Shown here in pieces: positions 1 to 39,450 of a DNA stretch of 64,000 bases (position 1 is the stretch's first letter; each line of letters starts with the position of its first letter). Made by a program: the position numbers and the translations under genes. Location of the stretch: the NCBI RefSeq assembly GCF_038502225.1, contig NC_091312.1, positions 33,169,455 to 33,233,454 of the forward strand. The letters run 5' to 3'. The notes beneath the pieces are model-generated. The model ran no database searches, was not told where the DNA came from, and saw only the letters and a program-made list of their open reading frames with translations. This stretch comes from Cherax quadricarinatus. Taxonomy: Eukaryota; Arthropoda; Malacostraca; Decapoda; Parastacidae.

Positions 1-3000
1 CTACCTCCAACAGGATACCAACCTACTACCTCCCACAGGATACCAACCTACTACCTCCCACAAGGATACCAAACTACTAACTCCCACAGGATACCAACCT
101 CCTTCCTCTCACAGGGTACCATCCTACTACCTCCCACAAAATACCAACCTACTACCTCCCAAATGATACCAACCTACTACCTCCCACAAGATACCAACCT
201 ACTACCTCTCACAGGATACCAACCTACTGCCTTCCACAGGATACCAACCTACTACCTCCCACAAGATACCCTCCTAATAACTCCCACAAGATACCAACCT
301 ACTACCTCCCACAGGATACCATCCTATAACCTCCCACAAGATACCAACCTACTTCCTCCCACAGGGTACCATCCCACTACCTCCCACAAGATACCAACCA
401 ACTACCTCCCACAAGATACCCTCCTAATAACTCCCAGAAGATACCAACCTACTTCCTCTCACAGGATACCAACCTACTGCCTCCCACAGGATACCAAACT
501 ACTACCTCCCACAAGATACCCACCTAATAACTCCCACAAGCTACCAACCTACTACCTCCCACAAGATACCCACCTACTGCCTCCCACAAGATACCAACCT
601 ACTACCTCCCACAGGATACCAACCTACTACCTCCTACAAGATACCAACCTACTACCTCCCACAAGATACCATCCTACTACCTCCCACATGATACCAACTT
701 CCTACCTTCCACATGATACCAACTTCCTACCTTCCACATGATACCAACCTACTACCTCCCACAAGATACCATCATACTACATCCCACAGACTACCAACCT
801 ACTACCTCCTACAAGATACCAACCTACTACCTCCCACAAGATACCAACCTACTACCTCCCACAATATACCAACCTACTACCTCCCACATGATACCAGCCC
901 ACTACCTCCCACAAGATACCAACCTACTACCTCCCACATGGTACCAACCTACTACCTCCCATATCATACCAACCTACTACCTCCCACATGATACCAACCT
1001 ATTACCTCCCACATCATACCAACCTACTACCTCCCACATGATACCAACCTACTACCTCCTACAGGATAACAACCTAATACCTCCCACATGATACCAACCT
1101 AATACCTCCCACATGATACCAACCTACTACCTCCCACATAATATCAACCTACTACCTCCTACAGGATGCCAGCCTACTACCTCCCACAAGATATCAACCT
1201 ACTACCTCCCACATGATACCAACCTACTAGCTATCATATGATACCAACCTACTTCCTCCCACAATATACCAACCTACTACCTCCCACATGATACCAACCT
1301 ATTACCTCCCACATTATACCAACCTACTATCTCCCACAGGATACCAACCTACTACCTCCCACAGGATACCAACCTACTACCTCCCACAGGATATCAACCT
1401 ACTACCTCCCACAGGATAACAACCTACTACCTCTCACAGGACACCAACCTACTACCTCCCACAGGATACCAACCTACTACCTCCCACAGGATACCAACCT
1501 ACTACCTCCCACAGGATACCAACCTACTACCTCCCACAGGATACCAACATTCTACCTCCCACAGGATACCAACCTACTACCTCCAACATGATACCAACCT
1601 GCTACCTCCTACAGGATACCAACCTACTACCTCACACATGATTCCAACCTACTACCTCCCACATGATACCAACCTACTACCTCCCACAGGGTACCAACCT
1701 ACTACCTCCTACAGGATACCAACCTACTACCTCCCATAAGATGCCAACCTACTACCTCCCACATGATACCAACCTTCTACCTCCCACGAGATACCAACCT
1801 TCTACCTCCCATATGATACTAACCTACTACCTCCCACATGATACCAACCTACTACCTCCCACATGATACCAACCTTCTACCTCCCACATGATACCAACCT
1901 ATTACCTTCCACATGATACCAACCTACTACCTCCCACAAGATACCAACCTACTACCTCCCACATGATACCAACCTACTACCTCCCACAAGATACCAACCT
2001 ACTACCTCCCACATGATACCAACCTACTACCTCTCACATGATACCAACCTACTACCACCCACATGGTACCAACCTACTACCTCCTACAGGATACCAACCT
2101 ACTTCCTCCCACATGATACCAACCTGCTACCTCCCACAAGATACCAACCTACTACCTCCCACAAGATACCAACCTACTACCTCCCACATGATACCAACCT
2201 ACTACCTCCTACATTATACCAACCTACTACATCCTACAGGATACCAACCTACTACCTCCCACAAGATACCAACCTACTACCTCCTACGGAATACCAACCT
2301 ACTACCTCCCACAAGATACCAACCTACTACCTCCCACAAGATACCAACCTACTACCTCCCACAAGATACCAACCTACTACCTCCCACATGATACCAACCT
2401 ACTACCTCCCATATGATACCAACCTACTACCTCCTACAGGATACCAACCTACTACCTCCCTCATGATACCAACCTACTACCTCCCACAATATACCAACCT
2501 ACTACCTCCCACAGGGTACCAACCTACTACCTCCCACATTAAACCAACCTAAAACCTCCCACAGGATACCAACCTACTACCTCCCACAGGATACCAACCT
2601 ACTACCTCCCACAGGATACCAACCTACTATCTACCACAGGATACCAACCTACTACCTCCCACAACATACCAACCTACTACCTCCCACAGGATAACAACCT
2701 ACTACCTCCCACAGGATACCAACCTACTACCTCCCACAGGATACCAACCTACTACCTCCCACAGGATACCAACCTACTACCTCCCACGGGATACCAACCT
2801 ACTACCTCCAACAGGATACCAACCTACTACCTCCCACAGGATACCAACCTACTACCTCCCAAAGGATACCAAACTACTAACTCCCACAGGATACCAACCT
2901 CCTTCCTCCCACAGGGTACCATCCTACTACCTCCCACAAAATACCAACCTACTACCTCCCAAAAGATACCGACCTACTACCTTCCACAAGATACCAACCT

Positions 3001-6000
3001 ACTACCTTTCACAGGATACCAACCTACTGCCTTCCACAGGATACCAACCTACTACCTCCCACAAGATACCCTCCTAATAACTCCCACAAGATACCAACCT
3101 ACTACCTCCCACAGGATACCATCCTACTACCTCCCACAAGATACCAACCTACTTCCTCCCACAGGGTACCATCCCACTACCTCCCACAAGATACCAACCA
3201 ACTACCTCCCACAAGATACCCTCCTAATAACTCCCAGAAGATACCAACCTACTTCCTCTCACAGGATACCAACCTACTGCCTCCCACAGGATACCAAACT
3301 ACTACCTCCCACAAGATACCCACCTAATAACTCCCACAAGCTACCAACCTCCTACCTCCCACAAGATACCCACCTACTGCCTCCCACAAGATACCAACCT
3401 ACTTCCTACCGCAGGGTACCATCCTACTACCTCCCACAAGATACCAACCTACTACCTCCCACAAGATACCATCCTACTACCTCCCACATGATACCAACTT
3501 CCTACCTTCCACATGATACCAACTTCCTACCTTCCACATGATACCAACCTACTACCTCCCACAAGATATCATCACACTACATCCCACAGACTACCAACCT
3601 ACTACCTCCTACAAGATACCAACCTACTACCTCCCACAAGATACCAACCTACTACCTCCCACAATATACCAACCTACTACCTCCCACATGATACCAGCCC
3701 ACTACCTCCCACAAGATACCAACCTACAACCTCCCACATGGTACCAACCTACTACCTCCCATATCATACCAACCTACTACCTCCCACATGATACCAACCT
3801 ATTACCTCCCACATCATACCAACCTACTACCTCCCACATGATACCAACCTACTACCTCCTACAGGATAACAACCTAATACCTCCCACATGATACCAACCT
3901 ACTACCTCCCACATGATACCAACCTACTACCTCCCACATAATATCAACCTACTACCTCCTACAGGATGCCAGCCTACTACCTACCACAAGATATCAACCT
4001 ACTACCTCCCACATGATACAAACCTACTAGCTATCATATGATACCAACCTACTTCCTCCCACAAGATACAAACCTACTACCTCCCACGTGATACCAACCT
4101 ATTACCTCCCACATGATACCAACCTACTATCTCCCACAGGATACCAACTTACTACCTCCCACAGGATACCAACCTACTACCTCCCACAGGATATCAACCT
4201 ACTACCTCCCACAGGATAACAACCTACTACCTCTCACAGGACACCAACCTACTACCTCCCACAGGATACCAACCTATTACCTCCCACAGGATACCAACCT
4301 ACTACCTCCCACAGGATACCAACCTACTACCTCCCACAGGATACCAACATTCTACCTCCCACAGGATACCAACCTACTACCTCCCACAAGATACCAACCT
4401 ACTACCTCCCACAGGATACCAACCTACTACCTCCCACAGGATGCCAACCTATTACCTCCCACAAGATACCAACCTACTTTCTCCCACAGCATACCATCCT
4501 ACTTCCTCCCACAAGATACCAACCTACTTCCACCCACAAGATACCAACCTACTACCTCCAACAAGATATCAACCTGCTACCTCTCACAGGATACCAACCT
4601 ACTACCTCCCACAAGACACCCTCCTAATAACTCCCACAAGATACCAATCTACTACCTCCCACAGGATACCATCCTACTACCTCCCAAAAGATACTAACCT
4701 ACTTCCTCCCACAGGGTACCATCCTACTAATTCGCACAAGATACCAACCTACTACCTCCCACAAGATACCCTCCTAATAACTCTCACAAGATACCAACCT
4801 ATTACCTCTCACAGGATACCAATCTACTGCCTCCCACAGGATACCAACCTACTACCTTCCACAAGATACCAACCTACTTCCTCCCACAGGGTACCATCCT
4901 ACTACTTCCCACAAGATACCAACCTACTACTTCCCACAAGATACCCTCCTAATAACTCCCACAAGATACCAACCTACTTCCTCCCACAAGATACCAACCT
5001 ACTTCCTCCCACAGGGTACCATCCTACTACCCCCACAAGATACCAACCTACTACCTCCCACAATATACCACCCTACTACCTCCCACATGATACCATCCTA
5101 CTACCTCCCACATGATAGCAACCTACTACCTCCTACAGAATATCAACCTACTACCTCCCACATGATTCCAACCTACTACCTCCCACATGATACCAACCTA
5201 CTACCTCCTACAGGATACCAACCTACTACCTCCTACAGGATGCCAACCTACTACCTCCCATAAGATGCCAACCTACTACCTCCCACATGATACCAACCTA
5301 CTACCTCCCACAAGATACCAATCTTCTACCTCCCACATGATACTAACCTACTACCTCCCACATGATACCAACCTACTACCTCCCACATGATACCAACCTA
5401 CTACCTCCCACATGATACCAACCTACTACCTCCCACATGATACCAACCTGCTACCTCCTACAGGATACCAACCTACTACCTCACACATGATACCAACCTA
5501 CTACCTCCTACAGGATACCAACCTACTACCTCCCATAAGATGCCAACCTACTACCTCCCACATGATACCAACCTACTACCTCCCACATGATACCAACCTT
5601 CTACCTCCTACATGATACCAACCTACTACCTTCCACATGATGCCAACCTACTACCTTCCACATGATGCCAACGTACTACCTCCCACAAGATACCAACCTA
5701 CTACCTCCCACATGATACCAACCTACTACCTCCCACAAGATACCAACCTACTACCTCCCACATGATACCAAACTACTACGTCTCACATGATACTAACCTA
5801 CTACCTCCCACATGGTACCAACCTACTAAATCCCACAAGATACCAACCTACTACCTCCCACAAGATACCAACCTACTACCTCCCACATGATACCAACCTA
5901 CTACCTCTCACATGATACCAACCTACTACCTCCCACATGATACCAACCTACTACCTCCCACATGATACCAACCTACTACCTCCCAGATGATACCAACCTA

Positions 6001-6522
6001 CTACCTCCCACATGATACCAACCTGCTACCTCCTACAGGATACCAACCTACTACCTCACACATGATTCCAACCTACTACCTCCCACATGATACCAACCTA
6101 CTACCTCCCACATGATACCAACCTACTACCTCCCACAAGATACCAACCTACTACCTCCCACATGATACCAACCTACTACCTCCCACAAGATACCAACCTA
6201 CTGCCTCCCACATGATACCAGCCTCCTACCTCTCACATGATACCAACCTACTACCTCCCACATGGTACCAACCTACTACCTCCTACAGGATACCAACCTA
6301 CTACCTCCCACATGATACCAACCTACTACCTCCCACAAGATACCAACCTACTACCTCCCACAAGATACCAACCTACTTCCTCCCACATGATACCAACCTA
6401 CTACCTCCTACATTATACCAACCTACTACCTCCTACAGGATACCAACCTACTACCTCCCACAAGATACCAACCTACTACCTCCTACAGGATACCAACCTA
6501 CTACCTACCACAAGATACCAAC
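1..6522. repeat. 25-bp satellite array, left block
   Basis: This is an uninterrupted head-to-tail array of a 25-bp unit, about 261 copies. The unit core reads ctactacctcccaca followed by a variable dinucleotide (tg, ag or gg) and ataccaac. Two units fill 50 bases, so the phase is easy to follow. The array is already running at base 1, so its left end lies outside the window. Units differ by scattered substitutions, and blocks of variants recur at multiples of 25 bp. Long open frames on the plus strand arise because 25 is not a multiple of 3, so every frame reads the same 75-nt cycle, which happens to lack stops. They are not evidence of a protein. The right edge is the insertion site of the LTR element. 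Confidence 0.97.
6518..6522. repeat. Target-site duplication, left copy (ccaac)
   Basis: The five bases ccaac directly precede the 5' LTR and recur directly after the 3' LTR at 12606-12610. A 4-5 bp duplication is usual for Ty3/gypsy integrases. Because the target is itself a 25-bp repeat, the duplicated bases also occur in every unit. The assignment therefore rests on the exact LTR ends, which are set by where the two LTR copies stop matching. Confidence 0.8.
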
Positions 6523-6947
6523 TGTGGCATGCAAAGAGTACGTAACCTTTATTCGGCGCATGGACACACCCTCATTTACAGGTTATCTCCCCCAACCAGC
6601 GAACCAGGTTGCTAAGAGTTGATGATGGGGCCCCATCGTTCAACTAGTGACCAGGTTCTAGCCAATAAGAAGGTGGGATTGGCAATCGCAGAGGTTATGT
6701 GGATACCGCTCTCCTGTCTGCCCTTGTCATTCCCATTCTAGAGCTGGTTGAAGCACGGTCTGCTATCTTGTGGCTTCTATTTCTGCCTTGCTTACCGTGG
6801 AGTGCACTATATTTATCACTGTACATAGTGTACATATTGCTGTTCTAAATTGGTGAAGGATAATATAAGTCTAAACTTTTTCTACTGTGTTTATTTGCTC
6901 CCATTACACCTGGGATAACAGGCCATTTGAAATCCTAGGTTGTAATA
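6523..6947 (+). repeat. 5' long terminal repeat (425 bp)
   Basis: This is identical to 12181-12605 apart from three substitutions: one near 6722 (c versus t in the 3' copy), and two in the segment around 6911-6916 (t/c and a/g). It starts with tg but ends with ta rather than the usual ca. The shared 3' end gttgtaata fixes the boundary, because the bases after it differ between the two copies. Transcription of the element should start in this LTR. Confidence 0.95.
6662..6815 (+). promoter_or_regulatory. Possible LTR promoter elements
   Basis: A CCAAT pentamer lies at 6662-6666 and a TATA-like stretch (tatattta) at 6808-6815. Both are in the plus orientation of the element, upstream of its leader. 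The spacing of about 145 bp is longer than typical. Nothing in the sequence shows where transcription starts. The same motifs occur in the 3' LTR. Confidence 0.3.
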
Positions 6948-6965
6948 TGGGTAGCCTGTCCGAGA
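6948..6965 (+). other. Likely primer-binding site region
   Basis: The bases immediately after the 5' LTR begin tgg, the complement of the cca end carried by all tRNAs, which is where a primer-binding site is expected. The following bases (gtagcctgtccgagag) do not match a tRNA 3' end that I can name. In the sense direction, ggtagc..tg.ccgag resembles the 5' end of a leucine tRNA, which would not serve as a conventional primer match. The identity of the primer is unresolved. Confidence 0.4.
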
Positions 6966-7268
6966 GCTGGACTTAGAGAAACGGTTGAGCTTAGGGTGAA
7001 GCTTGTAGCAGGAACATTGTGTAGCTTGCTGTTTCGCTTCGCTTTACAAATTTTGCGTGTCAGTTGCTTATGATCAGCCTTGCTATTGTGTGATCGTTCA
7101 ACAGCTCGCTACTAGCTTGTTCAGTGTGCTCGCTTCGCTACGGTCAATCTTGTGTGCAGTCGGCTTTGCTTGTATGCGTATTCTGCAATCGTACTGTGCA
7201 TAGCTAAGCGTGTTCTGCAAATTAACGTGTTACGTTGGGGTATTCGTACTGTGCATAGCGAATAACTT
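6966..7268 (+). other. Retrotransposon 5' leader (noncoding)
   Basis: This is untranslated leader between the primer-binding region and the Gag start. It contains a short direct repeat of cgtactgtgcatagc at 7190-7204 and again at 7245-7259, 55 bp apart. There is no convincing upstream reading frame. Packaging and dimerisation signals would be expected here by analogy with other LTR elements but cannot be recognised by eye. Confidence 0.6.
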
Positions 7269-10200
7269 ATGCCACCTAGACGAGTCAGACGCCTGGTGTC
7301 GGCATATACTTTGCATAACCTACCTAAATTGTCCCTACAGCGTTGTTGGCAAATTGCTCGTTCCATTGGCATTCCCTATAAACGCACTCTCACAGCTGCG
7401 CAACTGCGTTCACTTATTGCTGACAAACTTATTGAAGAAGAGATGGCACATCAAACTCCTCCCTCTACGGGAGCTGGGGCAAAAACTCTTATGTTCTCGC
7501 ATGAGGAAGATGATACACCTACGGAGCAAAATGGTCAGTATGGTGCAGCTGGGTTGTCTCGAGGTGAATCAGCGTCGTTGGCACTTGAGCTGGCAAAAAT
7601 CACGCTGGAGCAAACTAGGGAACAGAGAGCATTCGCAAGGGAAGAATTTGATAGGGAAAGAGAAAGGAGGCAGTTTTCGCATTCTGTAAACGATTTCAGT
7701 TTACAAAAAGCAGTACAGCTTGTTCCCCGCTTCAATGAGGCCGAACCAGAGCAATTTTTCGAAAGCTTCGAAAATCAGGCTCGAGCCTTGAGGTGGCCGG
7801 AACAGCACTGGGCAGCGTTGGTTCATACAGCATTATTGGGTAAGGCACAGGAATTTACGTCGGTATTAACTGACGCTGAATTCTCTGATTATCAAGTAGT
7901 GAAGACCACAGTGTTGGGAGCATATACATGTATCCCAGCTAAATATCGTAAGACCTTCAAATTGAACAGGCGGCAGCTTGGTCAATCCCTGGTGGACTTT
8001 GTGAGACAGCAAACCAAAGCTTTTACCAGCTGGTATAAAGCGAGTGGTGTCTCTAACTTTGAGGAGCTGGTGCAGCTTATTCTGATTGATAACCTGCTGG
8101 AGTCTGTGGGACCAGAGGTTCGTGTCTTTCTGCAGGATCGTGACTTAACCACTGCATTGGAGGCGGCCAGGTTGGCTGATACCTTCGAAACGAACCGCTC
8201 CTTGTCCGAGCGGTCCCGTCTCTCTTTTCAACAGTCTGGCGTGAGCAGAGATCGACAACATTGGAGAATGAAGTGCCAGCCGGAGGGAGAGCGTCTACGT
8301 CATCCAACTAAGTCACCTGGTGAGCCACGCTTCTCAACATATGGTCCCCCTGCGGAGAGGCAAACTACTTATGGAGCATCTCGACAACAATATCCAGAGA
8401 GGCACCAGCCAGAACGACACCACTTGCAACGTCATCAGGGAGTAAAGGGCAAGCCTGTCGTCTGCTTCAGGTGTAATAAAGTAGGTCACATCAGTTCAAA
8501 CTGCCCCCAAAAACCTCAACCCATCGGGAAAATCTCTAATATCCCTAGTAACATGTCCCCTAGAGAAGTAGAAAAAGGTATGGCCCCTTATTATTGCGAA
8601 AGTCTTATTTCCCTTCAGGAAAACTCAGAACCAACTAAAGTAAATACCTTTAGAGATACTGGAGCATATTGCTCACTTGTCAGAGAAGGAATATTACCCC
8701 TTTCAGAGAATACTTCCTTGAATTCCTCAGTTTTGTTGGAAGCCTATGGAGGAGCTATATATTCTGTTCCTTTGCATAAAATTTATGTACAGTGCAAATA
8801 TTACACTGGGTACTTGACTGTAGGTATCTCAAAAGGATTTCCCATGAAAAATGCCATGTTATTACTGGGTAATAACATTACTACTGTTACTTCGTGTCCT
8901 GAACCTATAATGATTAATGCTTCTCCAGTGTTGGCCATAACTCGGGCAACATCCCAAGGGTTGTCTGGGGAGAATGTTGACCTATCCTTGGACGACTCCG
9001 ATCTCGGAATAGCCACGTTGTTTTATGAGACACACCGGCCGGAGTCTCGTAAATCAAGTGAACAGACCCCGATCAAGCCTTCCTATTCCCAGGTTGCAGG
9101 ATTGCCAGATGTCTCTGTTTCCATGCCCGAGGGACTGTCCTTCCGGGAGGAACAACGAAAGGACCCTTCTTTAAAATTCGCTTTTCAGGCAGCCATGGGT
9201 AAATCCTCTTTGGGTCATCCAGTCAAGTATGAAGTTAAAAATGATTATTTGGTTTGCACTGAGACTGGTAAGGAGATAGAGGGCCGGCAATTATACGACA
9301 GGTTAGTGGTTCCAACCAAGTATAGACCTCAGATATTAAATATAGCTCATAATACGTCATTAGGAGGTCACTTAGGAATTACAAAAACCTTGTATAGAAT
9401 CACAAAAGAATTTTATTGGCCAAAATTAAAGAAAGATGTGAAGAATCATATTAGGTGTTGCCGAGAATGTCAGCAAGTTGGAAAACCTGGACATTCCATT
9501 AAACCTGCACCTCTCCAACCCATACCTGCTGATGGAGAACCTTTTGCAGATTTAATTATAGATTGTGTAGGTCCACTACCTAAGTCAAAGTCTGGAAATC
9601 AGTATTTATTTACAATTATGGATAAAGTAACCAGATATCCTGAAGCGATCCCAATGCGTAGTATCAATACTAAAGCTATTCTCAAAGCTTTAACAAAATT
9701 CATTTCTTGTTTTGGCATTCCTAAAACTATACAAAGTGATCAAGGTACTAACTTCACTGCCAAAGCATTTAGGGAAGTATTAACTAGGTTAGGGATAATT
9801 CACAACTTATCCACTGCCTATCACCCTCAGTCCCAAGGCGCCTTGGAAAGATTCCACCAAACATTAAAAACAATGATGAGAAGTTTTTGCATGCACTTTC
9901 CGACAGATTGGGATGAATCTCTACCGTTGTTGCTGTTCTCAGTACGAGAGACGGTGCAAGAGTCTACAGGGTATAGTCCGTTTGAGCTGATCTTTGGGCA
10001 CAATGTACGAGGTCCTCTTCGGGTGCTCAAAGAAGGATGGATGGGAGAAGACGTAAGCTCAGCACTCTACAACCCGTCTTCAAGGTTGCAGGTGGCACGT
10101 GAGTTAGCCACGGCTAACCTAAAGATAGCTCAAAGTAAGATGAAACAGAGGTATGACAGAAGTGCACAATTCCGCTCCTTCCATCCAGGAGACAAGGTGT

Positions 10201-11807
10201 TGGTGCAGGAACCTATACCTGGCCACACCTTGAAAGCTAGATTTACGGGACCTATGCAGATTGTAAGTAGATTATCTGATTTAAATTATGTGGTAGCTCC
10301 CATTGATAAAACCTCAAAAACAAAAACTTACCACATTAATCAAATCAAGGCCTTTCATACACCAGATAAAGTCCCAGTAATGACTCTGTCCTCTATCTCT
10401 GAGGACGACTCTGACTCTTTGCACTCTATCTCTGAAATTAATACTAAACTTTCAAATTCTGTCCTCCTCAAGGATCCTAGCCCGTTAATGGATGGATTAT
10501 CTGAAATACAAGCAACCAATTTAACTGAGCTTCTACAGTCATATCCTAATATTTTTTCGGATGTGCCGAAAAAATGTACGTTAGGTTACCATGATGTAGA
10601 TGTGGGAAAATCTAAACCAATTAAACTCTCCCCCTACAGAGCTAATCCTGAAAAGCAAAGGCTACTTCAGCAGGAAGTAGACTTCTTGTTAGAACATGGT
10701 TTAGTGGAGGAGTCATCTAGTCCATGGGCTTCACCGTGCATCCTAGTAAAAAAGGCTGATGGAGGGTTTCGTATGTGCACAGACTACCGTAAAGTGAACG
10801 AGGTCACAATCACAGATGCTTACCCTCTTCCTCGTCTGGATGACGTAATTGACTTTGTGGGTAAGGCTACTTTTGTGTCCAAATTAGATCTCCTTAAAGG
10901 TTACTATCAGGTACCTTTGACAGATAAGGCGAAGGAAATCTCTGCCTTCGTAATTCCAGGAGGTCATTATCAGTATACAGTTACCCCCTTCGGAATGAAA
11001 AATTCCCCCTCTTCATTCCAGAAACTCGTCCATCAGGCTATTAAAGGACTTGAAGGCACGGCAGCATACCTAGATGATATTGTTGTGGTGTCTGATACTT
11101 GGGATCAACACCTACTTAGACTTAAAGCTCTGTTTGAGACCTTTAAGAATTCCCAATTAACAGTTAATTTATCTAAATCTTCCTTTGGCCAGGCCACTGT
11201 CACTTTTCTAGGCCATGAAGTAGGTAGTGGTAATGTTGCACCTAAACTTGCTAAAGTTCTTTCGATTAAAGAATATCCAGTTCCTCATGATAGGAAATCT
11301 CTTCAACGTTTCCTAGGCATGATCGGATTTTACAGAAGATTCTGTAAGAATTTCTCAGATATTGTAGCCCCTCTTACCTCTCTTACCAGTCATAAAGTTC
11401 CCTTTAATTGGACGTCAGATTGTAACACTGCTTTTAATAAAGCAAAAAGATTATTGTGCTCTGCACCCATTCTCCTGTCTCCAGACTTCTCCAAACCTTT
11501 TTCATTACAGGTTGATGCTTGTGAGTCTGGGGTTGGGGCGGTACTATTACAAATCGGGAACAAGGAGCTGCAGCCAATCGCATATTTTTCAGCCAAGTTC
11601 CAGCCACATCAGAGAGCTTACTCTACCATTGAAAAAGAAGCCCTCGCGCTGGTAATGGCTTTGGAGCATTTCGATGTTTATGTGGGCCAGACATCGCAGG
11701 TGGTCACAGTCTACAGTGATCACAACCCGTTAGTCTATCTCCAAGCCATGAAGAATCACAACACAAGGCTTATGCGTGGACGCTCAGGCTGCAGCCCTAC
11801 AATATAA
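7269..11807 (+). CDS. Gag-Pol polyprotein (INT before RT), frameshifted near its end
   Basis: The 1,512-codon frame is the structural and enzymatic polyprotein of the LTR element. Gag fills roughly residues 1-440 and ends with a CCHC zinc knuckle (C399, C402, H407, C412; CFRCNKVGHISSNC). The protease active site is D463-T464-G465-A466. Integrase follows, with an HHCC zinc finger (H694, H701, C731, C734), the catalytic triad D765, D824, E860 (D-x58-D-x35-E), and a GPY/F-like module near G994-P995-M996. Reverse transcriptase comes after integrase, with the first catalytic Asp at D1207 and the YLDD box at 1267-1270. RNase H follows (D1416, E1455 or E1457, D1484). Gag and Pol share one frame, so no programmed frameshift is needed. 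The start is the first ATG of the open frame, after a 321-bp leader. The frame leaves the family pattern around codon 1504 and stops at 11805-11807. Reverse transcription and integration of the element's own RNA are the inferred roles. Confidence 0.93.
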   Translation: MPPRRVRRLVSAYTLHNLPKLSLQRCWQIARSIGIPYKRTLTAAQLRSLIADKLIEEEMAHQTPPSTGAGAKTLMFSHEEDDTPTEQNGQYGAAGLSRGESASLALELAKITLEQTREQRAFAREEFDRERERRQFSHSVNDFSLQKAVQLVPRFNEAEPEQFFESFENQARALRWPEQHWAALVHTALLGKAQEFTSVLTDAEFSDYQVVKTTVLGAYTCIPAKYRKTFKLNRRQLGQSLVDFVRQQTKAFTSWYKASGVSNFEELVQLILIDNLLESVGPEVRVFLQDRDLTTALEAARLADTFETNRSLSERSRLSFQQSGVSRDRQHWRMKCQPEGERLRHPTKSPGEPRFSTYGPPAERQTTYGASRQQYPERHQPERHHLQRHQGVKGKPVVCFRCNKVGHISSNCPQKPQPIGKISNIPSNMSPREVEKGMAPYYCESLISLQENSEPTKVNTFRDTGAYCSLVREGILPLSENTSLNSSVLLEAYGGAIYSVPLHKIYVQCKYYTGYLTVGISKGFPMKNAMLLLGNNITTVTSCPEPIMINASPVLAITRATSQGLSGENVDLSLDDSDLGIATLFYETHRPESRKSSEQTPIKPSYSQVAGLPDVSVSMPEGLSFREEQRKDPSLKFAFQAAMGKSSLGHPVKYEVKNDYLVCTETGKEIEGRQLYDRLVVPTKYRPQILNIAHNTSLGGHLGITKTLYRITKEFYWPKLKKDVKNHIRCCRECQQVGKPGHSIKPAPLQPIPADGEPFADLIIDCVGPLPKSKSGNQYLFTIMDKVTRYPEAIPMRSINTKAILKALTKFISCFGIPKTIQSDQGTNFTAKAFREVLTRLGIIHNLSTAYHPQSQGALERFHQTLKTMMRSFCMHFPTDWDESLPLLLFSVRETVQESTGYSPFELIFGHNVRGPLRVLKEGWMGEDVSSALYNPSSRLQVARELATANLKIAQSKMKQRYDRSAQFRSFHPGDKVLVQEPIPGHTLKARFTGPMQIVSRLSDLNYVVAPIDKTSKTKTYHINQIKAFHTPDKVPVMTLSSISEDDSDSLHSISEINTKLSNSVLLKDPSPLMDGLSEIQATNLTELLQSYPNIFSDVPKKCTLGYHDVDVGKSKPIKLSPYRANPEKQRLLQQEVDFLLEHGLVEESSSPWASPCILVKKADGGFRMCTDYRKVNEVTITDAYPLPRLDDVIDFVGKATFVSKLDLLKGYYQVPLTDKAKEISAFVIPGGHYQYTVTPFGMKNSPSSFQKLVHQAIKGLEGTAAYLDDIVVVSDTWDQHLLRLKALFETFKNSQLTVNLSKSSFGQATVTFLGHEVGSGNVAPKLAKVLSIKEYPVPHDRKSLQRFLGMIGFYRRFCKNFSDIVAPLTSLTSHKVPFNWTSDCNTAFNKAKRLLCSAPILLSPDFSKPFSLQVDACESGVGAVLLQIGNKELQPIAYFSAKFQPHQRAYSTIEKEALALVMALEHFDVYVGQTSQVVTVYSDHNPLVYLQAMKNHNTRLMRGRSGCSPTI

Positions 11808-11866
11808 AAATTAATTATATTGCCTGCAAAGAAAATGTGTTGGCAGACTCTTTGTCAAGAGTCTAG
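11777..11866 (+). pseudogene. Out-of-frame C-terminal tail of RNase H
   Basis: From about 11777 the recognisable RNase H C-terminus continues in a different plus-strand frame from the main Gag-Pol frame, through an ADSLSR motif to a tag stop at 11864-11866. This ADSLSR (A-D-x-L-S-R) motif is the usual end of gypsy-type RNase H/Pol proteins. The frames are consistent with loss of a single base around 11775-11779. About 30 codons are affected. It could be a real inactivating mutation or a homopolymer-type sequencing error at a t run. Confidence 0.8.
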
Positions 11867-12168
11867 TTTAATATTTTATTTAGGTTAGGATGTATTTGTG
11901 GTAACCCCCTTTCAAGCTCTTTTTTTTATCCCCTGATGTGGGGGTTTTTTTTAGTGAGGGGATACGGGCTACCGTCCGCTTGTATCTTGGACCTATGTTG
12001 GCCTATCTGACTGCTGTCTCACTCTGAGTTTAGGGTTTGGCTTTTGGTCACTAGGAAAGCTGAGCTCTATCTAAGAGTTGGATGGTGGAGAGGATAGGCG
12101 GTCCCATTATTTTGTGCCATGGCGGCACGGTTACCACTGGGAGGTGGCAGCCTAATCCTGAGCCTTCT
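11867..12168 (+). other. Retrotransposon 3' noncoding region
   Basis: This stretch lies between the end of Pol and the polypurine tract and has no convincing reading frame. It carries a short inverted repeat, atcccct near 11929 and aggggat about 20 bases later, around two runs of T. This could form a small hairpin in the RNA. No env gene or chromodomain is seen. Confidence 0.7.
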
Positions 12169-12180
12169 CGGGGGTGGGGG
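12169..12180 (+). other. Polypurine-like tract
   Basis: A G-rich run (cgggggtggggg) directly abuts the first base of the 3' LTR, which is where the plus-strand primer of reverse transcription is expected. It is interrupted by one T and has no A, so it is an unusual, G-only version of a polypurine tract. Confidence 0.65.
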
Positions 12181-12605
12181 TGTGGCATGCAAAGAGTACG
12201 TAACCTTTATTCGGCGCATGGACACACCCTCATTTACAGGTTATCTCCCCCAACCAGCGAACCAGGTTGCTAAGAGTTGATGATGGGGCCCCATCGTTCA
12301 ACTAGTGACCAGGTTCTAGCCAATAAGAAGGTGGGATTGGCAATCGCAGAGGTTATGTGGATACCGCTCTCCTGTCTGCTCTTGTCATTCCCATTCTAGA
12401 GCTGGTTGAAGCACGGTCTGCTATCTTGTGGCTTCTATTTCTGCCTTGCTTACCGTGGAGTGCACTATATTTATCACTGTACATAGTGTACATATTGCTG
12501 TTCTAAATTGGTGAAGGATAATATAAGTCTAAACTTTTTCTACTGTGTTTATTTGCTCCCATTACACCCGGGGTAACAGGCCATTTGAAATCCTAGGTTG
12601 TAATA
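12181..12605 (+). repeat. 3' long terminal repeat (425 bp)
   Basis: This is the second LTR copy, 422 of 425 bases identical to 6523-6947 by direct comparison. It ends in gttgtaata, and the satellite resumes at once with ccaacctactacc. A short open frame crossing the polypurine tract and the start of this LTR has no coding features. Confidence 0.95.
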
Positions 12606-12610
12606 CCAAC
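12606..12610. repeat. Target-site duplication, right copy (ccaac)
   Basis: These five bases match 6518-6522 on the other side of the element and mark the integration footprint. Removing the element plus one copy restores a normal 25-bp unit junction. Confidence 0.8.
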
Positions 12611-15600
12611 CTACTACCTCCCACAAGATACCAACCTACTACCTCCCACAAGATACCAACCTACTACCTCCCACAAGATACCAACCTACTACCTCCCACA
12701 TGATACCAACCTCCTACCTCCCATATGATACCAACCTACTACCTCCCACATGATACCAACCTACTACCTCCCACATGATACCAACCTACTACCTCCCACA
12801 TGATACCAACCTACTACCTTCCACATGATACCAACCTACTACCTCCAACATGATACCAACCTGCTACCTCCTACAGGATACCAACCTACTACCTCACACA
12901 TGATTCCAACCTACTACCTCCCACATGATACCAACCTACTACCTCCCACAGGGTACCAACCTACTACCTCCTACAGGATACCAACCTACTACCTCCCATA
13001 AGATGCCAACCTACTACCTCCCACATGATACCAACATTCTACCTCCCACGAGATACCAACCTTCTACCTCCCACATGATACTAACCTACTACCTCCCACA
13101 TGATACCAACCTACTACCTCCCACATGATACCAACCTTCTACCTCCCACATGATACCAACCTACTACCTTCCACATGATACCAACCTACTACCTCCCACA
13201 AGATACCAACCTACTACCTCCCACATGATACAAACCTACTACCTCCCACAAGATACCAACCTACTAAATCCCACATGATACCAACCTACTACCTCTCACA
13301 TGATACCAACCTACTACCTCCCACATGGTACCAACCTACTACCTCCTACAGGATACCAACCTACTACCTCCCACATGATACCAACCTGCTACCTCCCACA
13401 AGATACCAACCTACTACCTCCCACAAGATACCAACCTACTACCTCCCACATGATACCAACCTACTACCTCCTACATTATACCAACCTACTACCTCCTACA
13501 GGATACCAACCTACTACCTCCCACAAGATACCAACCTACTACCTCCTACGGGATACCAACCTACTACCTCCCACAAGATACCAACCTACTACCTCCCACA
13601 AGATACCAACCTACTACCTCCCACAAGATACCAACCTACTACCTCCCACATGATACCAACCTACTACCTCCCATATGATACCAACCTACTACCTCCTACA
13701 GGATACCAACCTACTACCTCCCTCATGATACCAACCTACTACCTCCCACATGATACCAACCTACTACCTCCCACATGATACCAACCTACTACCTCCCACA
13801 TGATACTAACCTACTACCTCCTACAGGATACCAACCTACTACCTCCTACATGAAACCAACCTACTACCTCCCAAAAGATACCAACCTACTACCTCCTACA
13901 GGATACCAACCTACTACCTCCTACAGGATACCAACCTACTACCTCCCACAAGATACCAACCTACTACCTCCTACATGATACCAACCTACTACCTCCCACA
14001 AGATACCAACCTACTACCTCATTCATTATACCAACCTACTACCTCCTACAGAATACCAACCTACTACCTCCCACAAGATACCAACCTACTACCTCCTACA
14101 GGATACCAACCTACTACCTCCCACAAGATACCAACCTACTACCTCCCACAAGATACCAACCTACTACCTCCTACATGATACCAACCTACTACCTCCCACA
14201 AGATACCAACCTACTACCTCCCATGTGATATCAACCTACTACCTACCACATGATACCAACCTTCTACCTCCCACAAGATATCAACCTACTACCTCCCACA
14301 TGATACCAACCTGCTACCTCCCACATGATACCAAGCTACTACCTCCCACAAGATACCAACCTACTACCTCCCACATGATACCAACCTACTACCTCCCACA
14401 TGATACCAATCTACTACCTCCCACAAGATACCATCCTACTACCTCCTACATGATACCAACCTACTACCTCCCACATGATACCAACCTACTACCTCCCACA
14501 AGATACCAGCCTACTACCTCCCACATGATACCAACCTACTACCTCCCACATGATACCAACCTACTACCTCCCACATGATACCAACCTACTACCTCCTACA
14601 GGATACCAACCTACTACCTCCCACATGATTCCAACCTACTACCTCCCACATGATAACCTACTACCTCCCACAGGATACCAGCCTACTACCTCCTACAGGA
14701 TACCAACCTACTACCTCCCATAAGATGCCAACCTACTACCTCCCACATGATACCAACCTACTACCTCCCACAAGATACCAACCTTCTACCTCCCACATGA
14801 TACTAACCTACTACCTCCCACATGATACCATCCTACTACCTCCCACATGATAGCAACCTACTACCTCCTACAGAATACCAACCTACTACCTCCCTCATGA
14901 TTCCAACCTACTATCTCCCACATGATACCAACCTACTACCTCCTACAGGATACCAACCTACTACCTCCTACAGGATGCCAACCTACTACCTCCCATAAGA
15001 TGCCAACCTACTACCTCCCACATGATACCAACCTACTACCTCCCACAAGATACCAATCTTCTACCTCCCACATGATACTAACCTACTCCCTCCCACATGA
15101 TACCAACCTACTACCTCCCACATGATACCAACCTACTACCTCCCACATGATACCAACCTACTACCTCCCACATGATACCAACCTGCTACCTCCTACAGGA
15201 TACCAACCTACTACCTCACACATGATACCAACCTACTACCTCCTACAGGATACCAACCTACTACCTCCCATAAGATGCCAACCTACTACCTCCCACATGA
15301 TACCAACCTACTACCTCCCAAGTGATACCAACCTTCTACCTCCTACATGATACCAACCTACTACCTTCCACATGATACCAACCTACTACCTCCCACATGA
15401 TACCAACGTACTACCTCCCACAAGATACCAACCTACTACCTCCCACATGATACCAACCTACTACCTCCCACAAGATACCAACCTACTGCCTCCCACATGA
15501 TACCAACCTACTACCTCTCACATGATACTAACCTACTACCTCCCACATGGTACCAACCTACTACCTCCCACAAGATACCAACCTACTTCCTCCCACATGA

Positions 15601-18600
15601 TACCAACCTACTACCTCCTACATTATACCAACCTACTACCTCCTACAGGATACCAACCTACTACCTCCCACAAGATACCAACCTACTACCTCCTACAGGA
15701 TACCAACCTACTTCCTACCACAAGATACCAACCAACTACCTCCCACAAGATACCAACCTACTACCTCCCACAAGATACCAACCTACTACCTCCCACATGA
15801 TACCAACCTCCTACCTCCCATATGATACCAACCTACTACCTCCTACAGGATACCAACCTACTACCTCCCACAAGATACCAACCTACTACCTCCCACATGA
15901 TACCAACCTCCTACCTCCCATATGATACCAACCTCCTACCTCCCATATGATACCAACCTACTACCTCCCACATGATACTAACCTACTACCTCCCACATGA
16001 TACCAACCTACTACCTCCCACATGATACCAACCTTCTACCTCCCACATGATACCAACCTACTACCTCCAACATGATACCAACCTGCTACCTCCTACAGGA
16101 TACCAACCTACTACCTCACACATGATTCCAACCTACTACCTCCCACATGATACCAACCTACTACCTCCCACAGGGTACCAACCTACTACCTCCTACAGGA
16201 TACCAACGTACTACCTCCCATAAGATGGCAACCTACTACCTCCCACATGATACCAACCTTCTACCTCCCACGAGATACCAACCTTCTACCTCCCACATGA
16301 TACTAACCTACTACCTCCCACATGATACCAACCTACTACCTCCCACATGATACCAACCTTCTACCTCCCACATGATACCAACCTATTACCTTCCACATGA
16401 TACCACCCTACTACCTCCCACAAGATACCAACCTACTACCTCCCACATGATACCAACCTACTACCTCCCACAAGATACCAACCTACTACCTCCCACATGA
16501 TACCAACCTACTACCTCTCACATGATACCAACCTACTACCTCCCACATGGTACCAACCTACTACCTCCTACAGGATACCAACCTACTACCTCCCACATGA
16601 TACCAACCTGCTACCTCCCACAAGATACCAACCTACTACCTCCCACAAGATACCAACCTACTACCTCCCACATGATACCAACCTACTACCTCCTACATTA
16701 TACCAACCTACTACCTCCTACAGGATACCAACCTACTACCTCCCACAAGATACCAACCTACTACCTCCTACGGGATACCAACCTACTACCTCCCACAAGA
16801 TACCAACCTACTACCTCCCACAAGATACCAACCTACTACCTCCCACAAGATACCAACCTACTACCTCCCACATGATACCAACCTATTACCTCCCATATGA
16901 TACCAACCTACTACCTCCTACAGGATACCAACCTACTACCTCCCTCATGATACCAACCTACTACCTCCCACATGATACCAACCTACTACCTCCCACATGA
17001 TACCAACCTACTACCTCCCACATGATACTAACCTACTACCTCCTACAGGATACCAACCTACTACCTCCTACATGATACCAACCTACTACCTCCCACAAGA
17101 TACCAACCTACTACCTCCTACAGGATACCAACCTACTACCTCCTACAGGATACCAACCTACTACCTCCCACAAGATACCAACCTACTACCTCCTACATGA
17201 TACCAACCTACTACCTCCCACAAGATACCAACCTACTACCTCCTACATTATACCAACCTACTACCTCCTACAGAATACCAACCTACTACCTCCCACAAGA
17301 TACCAACCTACTACCTCCTACAGGATACCAACCTACTACCTCCCACAAGATACCAACCTACTACCTCCCACAAGATACCAACCTACTACCTCCTACATGA
17401 TACCAACCTACTACCTCCCACAAGATACCAACCTACTACCTCCCATGTGATATCAACCTACTACCTCCCACATGATACCAACCTTCTACCTCCCACAAGA
17501 TATCAACCTACTACCTCCCACATGATACCAACCTGCTACCTCCCACATGATACCAACCTACTACCTCCCACAAGATACCAACCTACTACCTCCCACATGA
17601 TACCAACCTACAACCTCCCACATGATACCAATCTACTACCTCCCACAAGATACCATCCTACTACCTCCTACATGATACCAACCTACTACCTCCCACATGA
17701 TACCAACCTACTACCCCCCACAAGATACCAGCCTACTACCTCCCACATGATACCAACCTACTACCTCCCTCATGATACCAACCTACTACCTCCCACATGA
17801 TACCAACCTACTACCTCCTACAGGATACCAACCTACTACCTCCCACATGATTCCAACCTACTACCTCCCACATGATAACAACCTACTACCTCCCACAGGA
17901 TACCAGCCTACTACCTCCTACAGGACACCAACCTACTACCTCCCATAAGATGCCAACCTACTACCTCCCACATGATACCAACCTACTACCTCCCACAAAA
18001 TACCAACCTTCTACCTCCCACATGATACTAACCTACTACCTCCCACATGATACCATCCTACTACCTCCCACATGATAGCAACCTACTACCTCCTACAGAA
18101 TACCAACCTACTACCTCCCACATGATTCCAACCTACTATCTCCCACATGATACCAACCTACTACCTCCTACAGGATACCAACCTACTACCTCCTACAGGA
18201 TGCCAACCTACTACCTCCCATAAGATGCCAACCTACTACCTCCCACATGATACCAACCTACTACTTCCCACAAAATACCAATCTTCTACCTCCCACATGA
18301 TACTAACCTACTACCTCCCACATGATACCAACCTACTACCTCCCACATGATACCAACCTACTACCTCCCACATGATACCAACCTACTACCTCCCACATGA
18401 TACCAACCTGCTACCTCCTACAGGATACCAACCTACTACCTTACACATGATACCAACCTACTACCACCTACAGGATACCAACCTACTACCTCCCATAAGA
18501 TGCCAACCTACTACCTCCCACATGATACCAACCTACTACCTCCCACATGATACCAACCTTCTACCTCCTACATGATACCAACCTACTACCTTCCACATGA

Positions 18601-21600
18601 TACCAACCTACTACCTCCCACATGATACCAACGTACTACCTCCCACAAGATACCAACCTACTACCTCCCACATGATACCAACCTACTACCTCCCACAAGA
18701 TACCAACCTACTACCTCCCACATGATACCAACCTACTACCTCTCACATGATACCAACCTACTACCTCCCACATGGTACCAACCTACTACCTCCCACAAGA
18801 TACCAACCTACTACCTCCCACAAGATACCAACCTACTACCTCCCACATCATACCAACCTACTACCTCTCACATCATACCAACCTACTACCTCCCACATGA
18901 TACCAACCTACTACCTCCCACATGATACCAACCTACTACCTCCCACATGATACCAACCTACTACCTCCCACATGATACCAACCTGCTACCTCCTACAGGA
19001 TACCAACCTACTACCTCACACATGATTCCAACCTACTACCTCCCACATGATACCAACCTACTACCTCCCACATGATACCAACCTACTACCTCCCACAAGA
19101 TACCAACCTACTACGTCCTGATACCAACCTACTACTCCCACAAGATACCAACGTACTACCTCCCACATGATACCTACTACCTCTCACATGATACCAACCT
19201 ACTACCTCCCACATGGTACCAACCTACTACCTCCTACAGGATACCAACCTACTACCTCCCACATGATACCAACCTACTACCTCCCACAAGATACCAACCT
19301 ACTACCTCCTACATTATACCAACCTACTACCTCCTACAGGATACCAACCTACTACCTCGCACAAGATACCAACCTACTACCTCCTACAGGATACCAACCT
19401 ACTACCTCCCACAAGATACCAACCTACTACCTCCCACAAGATACCAACCTACTACCTCCCACAAGATACCAACCTACTACCTCCCACATGATACCAACCT
19501 ACTACCTCCCATATGATACCAACCTACTACCTCCCACATGATACTAACCTATTACCTCCCACATGATACCAACCTACTACCTCCCACATGATACCAACCT
19601 ACTACCTCCCACATGATACCAACCTACTACCTCCAACATGATACCAACCTGCTACCTCCTACAGGATACCAACCTACTACCTCACACATGATTCCAACCT
19701 ACTACCTCCCATATGATACCAACCTACTACCTCCCACAGGATACCAACCTTCTACCTCCTACAGGATACCAACCTACTACCTCCCATAAGATGCCAACCT
19801 ACTACCTCCCACATGATACCAACCTTCTACCTCCCACAAGATACCAAGCTTCTACCTCCCACATGATACTAACCTACTACCTCCCACATGATACCAACCT
19901 ACTACCTCCCACATGATACCAACCTTCTACCTCCCACATGATACCAGCCTACTACCTTCCACATGATACCAACCTACTACCTCCCACATGATACCAACCT
20001 ACTACCTCCCACAAGATATCAACCTACTACCTCCCACATGATACCAACCTACTACCTCCCACAAGATACCAACCTACTACCTCCCACATGATACCAACCT
20101 ACTACCTCTCACATGATACCAACCTACTACCTCCCACATGGTACCAACCTACTACCTCCTACAGGATACCAACCAACTACCTCCCACATGATACCAACCT
20201 ACTACCTCCCACAAGATACCAACCTACTACCTCCCACAAGGAACCAACCTACTACCTCCCACATGATACCAACCTACTACCTCCTACATTATACAAACCT
20301 ACTACCGCCTACAGGATACCAACCTACTACCTCCCACAAGATACCAACCTACTACCTCCTACAGGATACCAACCTACTACCTCCCACAAGATACCAACCT
20401 ACTACCTCCCACAAGATACCAACCTACTACCTCCCACAAGATACCAACCTACTACCTCCCACATGATACCAACCTACTACCTCCCATATGATACCAACTT
20501 ACTACCTCCTACAGGATACCAACCTACTACCTCCCTCATGATACCAACCTACTACGTCCCACATGATACCAACCTACTACCTCCCACAAGATACCAACCT
20601 ACTACCTCCCACAAGATACCAACCTACTACCTCCCACATGATACCAACCTACTACCTCTCACATGATACCAACCTACTACCTCCCACATGGTACAAACCT
20701 ACTACCTCCCACAAGATACCAACCTACTACCTCCCACAAGATTCCAACCTACTACCTCCCACATGATACCAACCTACTACCTCTCACATGATACCAACCT
20801 ACTACCTCCCACATGATACCAACCTACTACCTCCCACATGATACCAACCTACTACCTCCCACATGATACCAACCCACTACCTCCCACATGATACCAACCT
20901 GCTACCTCCTACAGGATACCAACCTACTACATCACACATGATTCCAACCTACTACCTCCCACAAGATACCAACCTACTACCTCCCACATGATACCAACCT
21001 ACTACCTCCCACAAGATACCAGCCTACTACCTCCCACATGATACCAACCTACTACCTCTCACATGATACCAACCTACTACCTCCCACATGGTACCAACCT
21101 ACTACCTCCTACAGGATACCATCCTACTACCTCCCACATGATACCAACCTACTACCTCCCACAAGATACCAACCTACTACCTCCTACATTATACCAACCT
21201 ACTACCTCCTACAGGATACCAACCTACTACCTCGCACAAGATACCAACCTACTACCTCCTACAGGATACCAACCTACTACCTCCCACAAGATACCAACCT
21301 ACTACCTCCCACAAGATACCAACCTACTACCTCCCACAAGATACCAACCTACTACCTCCCACATGATACCAACCTACTACCTCCCATATGATACCAACCT
21401 ACTACCTCCCACATGATACTAACCTATTACCTCCCACATGATACCAACCTACTACCTCCCACATGATACCAACCTACTACCTCCCACATGATACCAACCT
21501 ACTACCTTCCACATGATACCAACCTACTACCTCCCACATGATACCAACCTACTACCTCCCACAAGATACCAACCTACTACCTCCCACATGATACCAACCT

Positions 21601-22620
21601 AGTACCTCCCACAAGATACCAACCTACTACCTCCCACATGATACCAACCTACTACCTCTCACATGATACCAACCTACTACCTCCCACATGGTACCAACCT
21701 ACTACCTCCTACAGGATACCAACCAACTACCTCCCACATGATGCCAACCTACTACCTCCCACAAGATACCAACCTACTACCTCCCACAAGATACCAACCT
21801 ACTACCTCCCACATGATACCAACCTACTACCTCCTACATTATACAAACCTACTACCGCCTACAGGATACCAACCTACTACCTCCCACAAGATACCAACCT
21901 ACTACCTCCTACAGGATACCAACCTACTACCTCCCACAAGATACCAACCTACTACCTCCCACAAGATACCAACCTACTACCTCCCACATGATACCAACCT
22001 ACTACCTCCCATATGATACCAACTTACTACCTCCTACAGGATACCAACCTACTACCTCCCTCATGATACCAACCTACTACGTCCCACATGATACCAACCT
22101 ACTACCTCCCACATGATACCAACCTACTACCTCCCACATGATACTAACCTACTACCTCCTACAGGATACCAACCTACTACCTCCCACATGATACCAACCT
22201 ACTACCTCCCACAAGATACCAACCTACTACCTCCCTCCTGATACCAACCTACTACCTCCTACATGATACCAACCTACTACCTCCCACAAGATACCAACCT
22301 ACTACCTCCTACAGGATACCAACCTACTACCTCCTACAGGATACCAACCTACTACCTCCTACAGGATACCAACCTACTACCTCCTACAGGATACCAACCT
22401 AGTACCTCCTACAGGATACCAACCTACTACTTCCTACAGGATACCAACCTACTACCTCCTACAGGATACCAACCTACTACCTCCCACAGGATACCAACCT
22501 ACTAACTCCCACATGATACCAACCTAGTACCTTCTACAGGATACCAACCTACTACCTCCTACAGGATACCAACCTAGTACCTCCTACAGGATACCAACCT
22601 ACTACCTCCTACAGGATCCC
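12606..22620. repeat. 25-bp satellite array, right block
   Basis: This continues the 25-bp satellite on the other side of the LTR element, with about 400 more units. Variant patterns repeat on a larger scale. About 12710-15580 and 15930-18805 are near copies offset by 3,222-3,225 bp (129 units, with a 3-bp deletion at about 14652 accounting for the difference). Segments near 20088-20550 and 21638-22076 are related at about 1,525-1,550 bp. One disrupted stretch with shortened units sits at 19110-19190. The last units (22260-22620) are dominated by the ctacagg variant, and the array ends abruptly at about 22620. Confidence 0.97.
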
Positions 22621-38200: not shown

Positions 38201-39450
38201 GCTTACTATCAAGGCTGAGGGGCTGATCACTTACTGTCAAGGTTGAGGGACTGATCACTTACTATCAAGGCTGAAGAACTGATCATTTACTATCAAGGCT
38301 GAGGGACTGATCACTTACTATCAAGGCTGAAGAACTGATCATTTACTATCAAGGCTGAGGGACTGATCACTTACTATCAAGACTGAGGGACTGATCATTT
38401 ACTATCAAGGCTGAGGGACTGATCACTTACTATCAACACTGAGGGACTGATCACTTACTATCAAGACTGAGGGACTGATCACTTACTATCAAGGCCGAGG
38501 GACTGATCACTTACTATCAAGGCTGAGGGACTGATCACTTACTATCAAGGCTGAGGGACTGATCGCTTACTATCAAGACTGAGGGACTGATCACTTACTA
38601 TCAAGACTGAGGGACTGATCGCTTACTATCAAGGCTGAGGGACTGATCACTTACTATCAAGACTGAGGGACTGATCACTTACTATCAAGGCTGAGGAACT
38701 GATCACTTACTATCAAGGCTGATGGACTGATCGCTTACTATCAAGGCTGAGGGGCTGATCACTTACTGTCAAGGTTGAGGGACTGATCACTTACTATCAA
38801 GGCTGAAGAACTGATCATTTACTATCAAGGCTGAGGGACTGATCGCTTACTATCAAGGCTGAGGGACTGATCACTTACTATCAAGGCTGAGGGACTGATC
38901 ACTTTCTATCAAGGCTGAGGAGCTGATCACTTACTATCAAGGCTGAGGGACTGATCACTTACTATCAAGGCTGATGAACTGACCACTTACTATCAAGGCT
39001 GATGAACTGATCACTTACTATCAAGGCTGAGGGACTGATCATTTACTATCAAGGCTCAGGGACTGATCACCTCCTATGAAGGCCGTGGGACTGATCACCT
39101 ACTGCTAAAGCTGAGTGACTGATCACATACTATCAAGGCTGAGGAGCTGATCACTTACTATCAAGGCTGAGGAGCTGATCACTTACTATCAAGGCTGAGG
39201 GACTGATCACTTACTATCAATGCTGAGGGACTGATCACTTAGTATCAAGGCTGAGGGACTGATCACTTACTATCAAGGCTGAGGGACTGATCACTTACTA
39301 TCAAGGCTGAGGGACTGATCACTTACTATCAAGGCTGAGGAACTGATCACCTCCTATGAAGCCTCAAGGACTGGGCAGCTCCTATGAAGGCCGAGGGACT
39401 GATCACCTACTGGTAAAGGTGATCAGCCCCACAGGGACTGATCACCTCAA
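23260..39450. repeat. 28-bp satellite array
   Basis: About 577 tandem copies of a 28-bp unit. The core is gagggactgatcacttact followed by atcaa or gtcaa and gact or ggct. Nearly every unit has the palindrome tgatca. The first unit (about 23260-23287) is degenerate, and units near the right end (about 39060-39450) are also worn. Variant types (gactgacgg, ggctcagggg, gtcatgactg, tatgaagact) are arranged in ordered blocks. A 4.9-kb stretch starting near 23660 is repeated almost exactly 5,040 bp further on. No host coding sequence is seen within. Confidence 0.97.

Follow-up and report, generated by a model that had tools for sequence, protein, structure and literature searches.

A complete integrase-first Ty3/Gypsy retrotransposon of probable Gmr1 type in the redclaw crayfish Cherax quadricarinatus

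Element Structure and Insertion Site

The window (the whole 64,000-nt stretch of DNA that was analysed) carries at positions 6523-12605 one complete LTR retrotransposon of 6083 bp (Table 1). The two LTRs, each of 425 bp, were identical at 422 of 425 positions with all three differences being transitions, in keeping with the young copy proposed in the first-pass annotation of this DNA. Comparison of the flanks identified a 5-bp target-site duplication, CCAAC, on both sides of the element. One and the same 25-bp minisatellite flanks the element 5' and 3', and when the phase of this array was followed the two flanks overlapped by exactly the five bases of the duplication, so the 6083-bp element represents one insertion. 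The LTRs, the target-site duplication and the polypurine tract are additions to the first-pass annotation. No primer tRNA was assigned to the putative primer-binding site, although a TGG adjoins the 5' LTR. The LTRs end in AATA rather than the usual CA, both in the window copy and in 24 of the 25 other copies that could be matched to the 3' end.

Table 1. Features of the element, in window coordinates.
Feature	Position	Strand	Evidence
5' target-site duplication, CCAAC	6518..6522	.	Flanks compared, in phase with 25-bp array
5' LTR, 425 bp, TGTGG...AATA	6523..6947	+	422/425 identical to 3' LTR; match begins at first LTR base in 8/8 fetched 5' ends
5' leader; TGG right after LTR could begin primer-binding site	6948..7268	+	Sequence
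Single Gag-Pol frame, 1512 aa	7269..11807	+	Open frame; in-frame stop just 5' at 7263
Gag, SCAN-like capsid part (PF02023), aa 225-310	7941..8198	+	E 4.1e-6; 26.9 bits against cut-off of 27 (0.1 bit under)
Gag, CCHC zinc knuckle, aa 399-412	8463..8504	+	Pfam search and motif
Protease motif DTGA, aa 463-466	8655..8666	+	Motif; matching segment in 105/120 relatives (best 120 of 1697)
Integrase zinc-binding domain (PF17921), HHCC 694-734	9309..9482	+	E 9.8e-21
Integrase catalytic core (PF00665 match)	9561..9827	+	E 3.9e-16; D765 and D824 inside, E860 just beyond
Integrase C-terminal domain (PF22938)	10248..10349	+	E 2.3e-5; 24.8 bits, cut-off 27 (2.2 bits under)
Reverse transcriptase (PF00078, RVT_1), YLDD at aa 1267	10746..11222	+	E 8.5e-33
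RNase H (PF17917)	11484..11777	+	E 5.0e-29
RNase H C-terminal end, in another frame in the window copy, ending LADSLSRV-stop	11778..11866	+	Sequence; RT frame reaches this end in 26/29 other copies
Polypurine-tract-like run adjoining 3' LTR	12170..12180	+	Sequence
3' LTR, 425 bp	12181..12605	+	Same 3' border in 24/25 other copies matching to end; 25th one base short
3' target-site duplication, CCAAC	12606..12610	.	Flanks compared

Domain Order of the Gag-Pol Frame

Along the Gag-Pol frame, which was searched against Pfam in pieces, the domains were found in the order Gag, protease, integrase, reverse transcriptase (RT) and RNase H. The protease piece matched no Pfam family, and the protease call therefore rests on the DTGA motif and on the matching segment in most of the best 120 relatives. 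Within the integrase, 35 residues separate D824 from E860, giving a DD35E signature. The protease, integrase and RT motifs (DTGA at 463, HHCC at 694-734, D765/D824/E860, YLDD at 1267) all lie exactly where the first-pass annotation had placed them. Its description of a single frame with protease, integrase, RT and RNase H was right in the order and needs one correction, since the last stretch of RNase H, to 11866, lies in another frame. The RT frame stops short of the RNase H end in three of 29 other copies as well. With its RNase H end frame-shifted, the window copy is probably not autonomous as it stands. The approximately 310 bases between 11866 and the 3' LTR contained no long frame in any of the six frames, thus there is no second integrase and the usual place of the integrase is empty.

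Membership of Ty1/Copia was considered and rejected: the order protease-integrase-RT-RNase H fits that group, but the RT does not, as it matches RVT_1 (copia RTs being covered by a Pfam model of their own) and is best matched among solved structures by the RT of Ty3. For both enzymes the closest solved structures were those of Ty3 of yeast (E 9.1e-77 for RT and 9.4e-40 for integrase; PDB 7q5b and 4ol8, both Ty3 entries). Searches against NCBIfam gave four transposase matches for the integrase, all under the cut-off, and zero matches for the RT. Ty3 itself has the ordinary order, with RT at residues 615-974 and integrase at 1085-1453 of the polyprotein, whereas the crayfish element has the integrase first.

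Host Genome and Sequence Environment

COX1 from the last contig of the genome, translated with the invertebrate mitochondrial code, matched Cherax quadricarinatus COX1 at 100% identity across 447 aa, with the next match at 93% (Engaeus). The probable decapod host suggested from the letters alone was thus correct, and it is very likely the redclaw crayfish or a very near relative. COX1 gave 95 matches in the genome, of which some 20 were almost complete and many lay on large contigs; mitochondrial pseudogenes are apparently abundant in this genome, and COX1 pseudogenes in Cherax quadricarinatus are reportedly, going by a title, the topic of a paper.

Minisatellite arrays whose units measure about 20-37 bp make up most of the window and lie at 1-6522, 12603-22617, 23260-39411 (a 28-bp-like unit) and in several stretches between 44191 and 63817. 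A preference of the element for tandem-repeat targets was examined but not shown. The window copy is embedded in an array of a 25-bp minisatellite, and tandem repeats made up half or more of the 3' flank in 11 of 25 other copies. Among 40 random 333-bp stretches of the genome, however, 10 reached the same proportion (2 of the 40 consisted of N alone; Fisher p = 0.17, Mann-Whitney p = 0.085), and the genome is tandem-repeat-rich anyway.

Many of 150 scored RVT_1 matches in the genome shared one common score and 1246-aa frames. Eight pieces of this group were fetched and none matched the Gypsy domains of the window, so the group is probably a non-LTR element.

Copies of the Element in the Crayfish Genome

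The 2190-bp block from integrase to RT was used as a query against the window's own genome (3.95 Gb, 7334 contigs). All 40 scored matches, the window's own included, covered the block from end to end, so the integrase-first order is not due to chance. These 40 were scored from 2693 first-look candidates; 40 is a lower bound on the family and 2693 is not a copy number. Thirty loci, including that of the window, were extracted together with 1500 bases of flank at either end; integrase lay upstream of RT in every one, and they were 99.59-100% identical to the window over the 2190 bp. The canonical order was not seen among these loci.

The borders of the element were also repeated among copies. 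In 25 of the 29 other copies the match reached the 3' end of the element and then passed into differing flanks, while in the remaining four it ended earlier within the element. Among eight other copies with fetched 5' ends, LTR pairs differed by 0-3 mismatches and an exact 5-bp target-site duplication was present in six. Of the two exceptions, one was off by one base, and the other (L026, L054) was preceded at its 5' LTR by another copy's internal 3' end with its purine run, so that these two elements share an LTR. The integrase-first order is a property of the family, and is neither a nest nor an accident of assembly.

Protein Relatives

Residues 590-1512 were used to search for related proteins, resulting in 1697 proteins under the threshold among 7972 scored candidates, of which the best 120 were used. 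Most of these covered 89-99% of the query at 47-52% identity, with two outliers (P0001, 45% over 86%; P0041, 38% over 75%). Integrase was upstream of RT in all of the best 120 relatives listed, P0041 being a double model with the order IN-RT-IN-RT. Named sources among them were sea urchin, sea cucumber, sawfish, bony fishes, newt and pearl oyster. No relatives were found in the viral contigs searched, and no sequence labelled Gmr1 was among the matches of the collections searched.

These identities bear on whether the crayfish recently acquired a Gmr1 element by horizontal transfer from a fish, echinoderm or mollusc. In favour of a transfer, the family is young and has many copies, but none of the best 120 of the 1697 relatives exceeded 52% identity over the integrase-RT-RNase H region, and the highest values for single domains among them were 68.75% (integrase core), 64.3% (RNase H) and 59.1% (RT). 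We consider a recent transfer very improbable.

Fourteen loci from prokaryote assemblies were also compared. Two (L001, L002) were integrase-first, six (L003-L008) had RT before the zinc and core domains of integrase, three (L009, L010, L012) had RT before one integrase part only, and three (L011, L013, L014) had no integrase match. L010 additionally had a stray upstream match to the C-terminal part of integrase and L012 a second RT downstream. L001 and L002, together with the proteins P0035, P0047 and P0104, are integrase-first Gypsy elements filed under a Heimdallarchaeota assembly and Thiodiazotropha assemblies; the Gypsy loci in prokaryote assemblies are presumably eukaryotic contamination.

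Canonical protein references were the best 120 of 4751 proteins found with L006. They were mostly fused gene models, with RT-IN-RT-IN the commonest pattern (70/120) and a single RT-IN unit in just one. Nine of the 119 counted, which fell into 20 patterns, start with an integrase match, leaving their order less clean than that of Ty3 or the loci.

Phylogeny of Reverse Transcriptase and Integrase

The main trees combined 20 and 24 proteins picked by hand from the two sets of 120 with L001, Ty3 and four canonical loci. No usable row was obtained for P0041 in RT or for P0177 in integrase. None of the rows was labelled Gmr1, Mag, CsRn1, Mdg3, Athila or copia, and the integrase-first relatives stand in for a Gmr1 set. 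In the main RT tree the window and 20 integrase-first rows were separated from 29 canonical rows with support of 100/100, and in the main integrase tree the window grouped with 20 integrase-first rows at 100/99; when P0041 was counted in, the split from 28 canonical rows dropped to 90/74. An earlier quick tree with other choices of rows had also placed the window with the integrase-first rows, at 99 for RT and, for integrase, at 99 without P0041 and 85 with it. The joint grouping of RT and integrase that the first-pass annotation had named as support for one shared origin is thus found, with these relatives in the place of Gmr1 references.

Ordinary Gypsy elements from the crayfish genome itself were sought with the RT of L006, and 100 matches were scored of 21218 candidates. 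They fell mostly into two groups by frame length, of about 1418 and 1311 aa, and the one member fetched from each (L107, L108) had RT and RNase H followed by integrase. In extended trees, to which L107 and L108 were added and from which P0041 and ten canonical rows were dropped, the window and 20 integrase-first rows were again on one side (RT 100/100, integrase 100/99). Both L107 and L108 fell outside the integrase-first clade, L108 being drawn nearer to it in RT without support (47/25). Since this one crayfish genome contains Gypsy elements of both orders, the order depends on the lineage of the element and not on the host.

The position of the window inside the clade differed between trees. 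The integrase trees placed it outside the other integrase-first rows (95/82 in the main tree, 90/65 in the extended tree). In RT its position was open in the main tree, and the extended tree nested it with 14 relatives to the exclusion of six bony-fish rows (95/81).

That the ordinary order was rearranged separately within arthropods, one of two outcomes envisaged in the first-pass annotation, could be read from that outer position in the integrase trees and from the length of the window branch (0.67 in RT, 0.47 in integrase). It is nevertheless very unlikely, as both RT and integrase are placed among the integrase-first elements at full or almost full support, and neither of the two crayfish elements of ordinary order that were tested joins them with support. 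The other outcome, a broad distribution, is the one supported. As both domains lie within the integrase-first clade, a single change of order suffices on both trees, and one inherited Gmr1-type rearrangement, not a new one, appears to account for the order. Hardly credible is a nest or recombinant of two elements, in which a piece of integrase had landed ahead of a piece of RT. Only the departure from ordinary Gypsy order speaks for it, and against it stand the one uninterrupted frame, the one LTR pair, the one target-site duplication, the presence of the block in each of the 40 genome matches scored and the placement of RT and integrase in the same clade; the chimera that had been raised as a possible objection is accordingly not what the locus contains.

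Identity of the Element and Comparison with Described Gmr1 Elements

Taken together, we consider it very probable (roughly 0.95) that the element is complete, was inserted recently and belongs to a Gmr1-type Ty3/Gypsy family with many copies in the redclaw crayfish, a family that has inherited its integrase-first order. The name Gmr1 is based on the shared order, the SCAN-bearing Gag and the description in the literature, the relatives that were compared bearing no Gmr1 label.

Occurrence of Gmr1 in an arthropod, which the first-pass annotation had taken to be significant, was already in print. In the portions of PMC3587641 (2013) available to us, four Gmr1-related elements are reported from decapods (hydrothermal shrimps, a spider crab and a prawn) and are termed the first Gmr1-like elements in protostomes, and a shrimp integrase fragment is said to resemble a Gmr1-like element of sea bream. 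The Gmr1 affinity reported there concerns the RT of GyRex4, Gychoro2, GyMaja1 and GyLiva4 and the integrase of GyRex5. These resemble the crayfish element in host order and Gypsy type, a likeness drawn from description and not from sequence. The shrimp RT and integrase fragments, however, are separate and do not overlap, so that their order is not visible, whereas the crayfish element is complete with LTRs and target-site duplication. As far as the available text of each source goes, Gmr1 is one of five Gypsy clades that occur across several phyla (PMC8556966), a Gmr1 family occurs in an annelid (PMC8220671), the C-terminal part of the Gmr1-like Gag capsid is similar to SCAN (PMC4592553), and the Gmr1 clade is mentioned in three further papers (PMC4131045, PMC6238403, PMC2774666). 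No description of a complete decapod Gmr1 element was found in the literature searched, from which subscription papers mostly fell outside, and the word Gmr1 was absent from the main texts examined on decapod and crayfish repeats.

By description (PMC3587641 and PMC8220671, in the parts available), a Gypsy-type Pol with the integrase ahead of RT, as here, is also found in Gmr1 of Atlantic cod and in the deuterostome group of Goodwin and Poulter 2002. In size the crayfish element (6083 bp, LTR 425 bp, Gag-Pol 1512 aa) is within the range given in the accessible text of PMC11117352 for Gmr of tetraodontiform fish (6058-6465 bp, LTR 337-518 bp, Gag-Pol 1506-1634 aa), but it comes from another host and the frame of the window copy stops before the RNase H end. 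The crayfish element is very probably a further case of the Gmr1 type.

Mobility and Significance

The family would move in the same way as other LTR retrotransposons, and may still do so. RNA driven from the LTR would give a Gag capsid with a SCAN-like part and a single Gag-Pol polyprotein that is probably cut by its own protease. Reverse transcription would be primed beside the 5' LTR and at the polypurine tract, and the DD35E integrase would insert the product with a 5-bp staggered cut. The sole unusual point in this scheme would be the place of integrase between protease and RT, an order presumably passed down from the common ancestor of the integrase-first clade.

Whether the crayfish family could be an early-branching Gmr1 lineage of parastacid crayfish, apart from the sampled deuterostome and mollusc lineages and still mobile, is a more speculative matter, and we hold it to be a tentative and rather doubtful reading. 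If true, it could help to place the single origin of the integrase-first order earlier than the split between protostomes and deuterostomes. As a young and complete decapod element, the present copy has its value in showing the integrase-first order directly. That Gypsy elements of both orders occur together in one crayfish genome ties the order to lineage; the element is otherwise ordinary.
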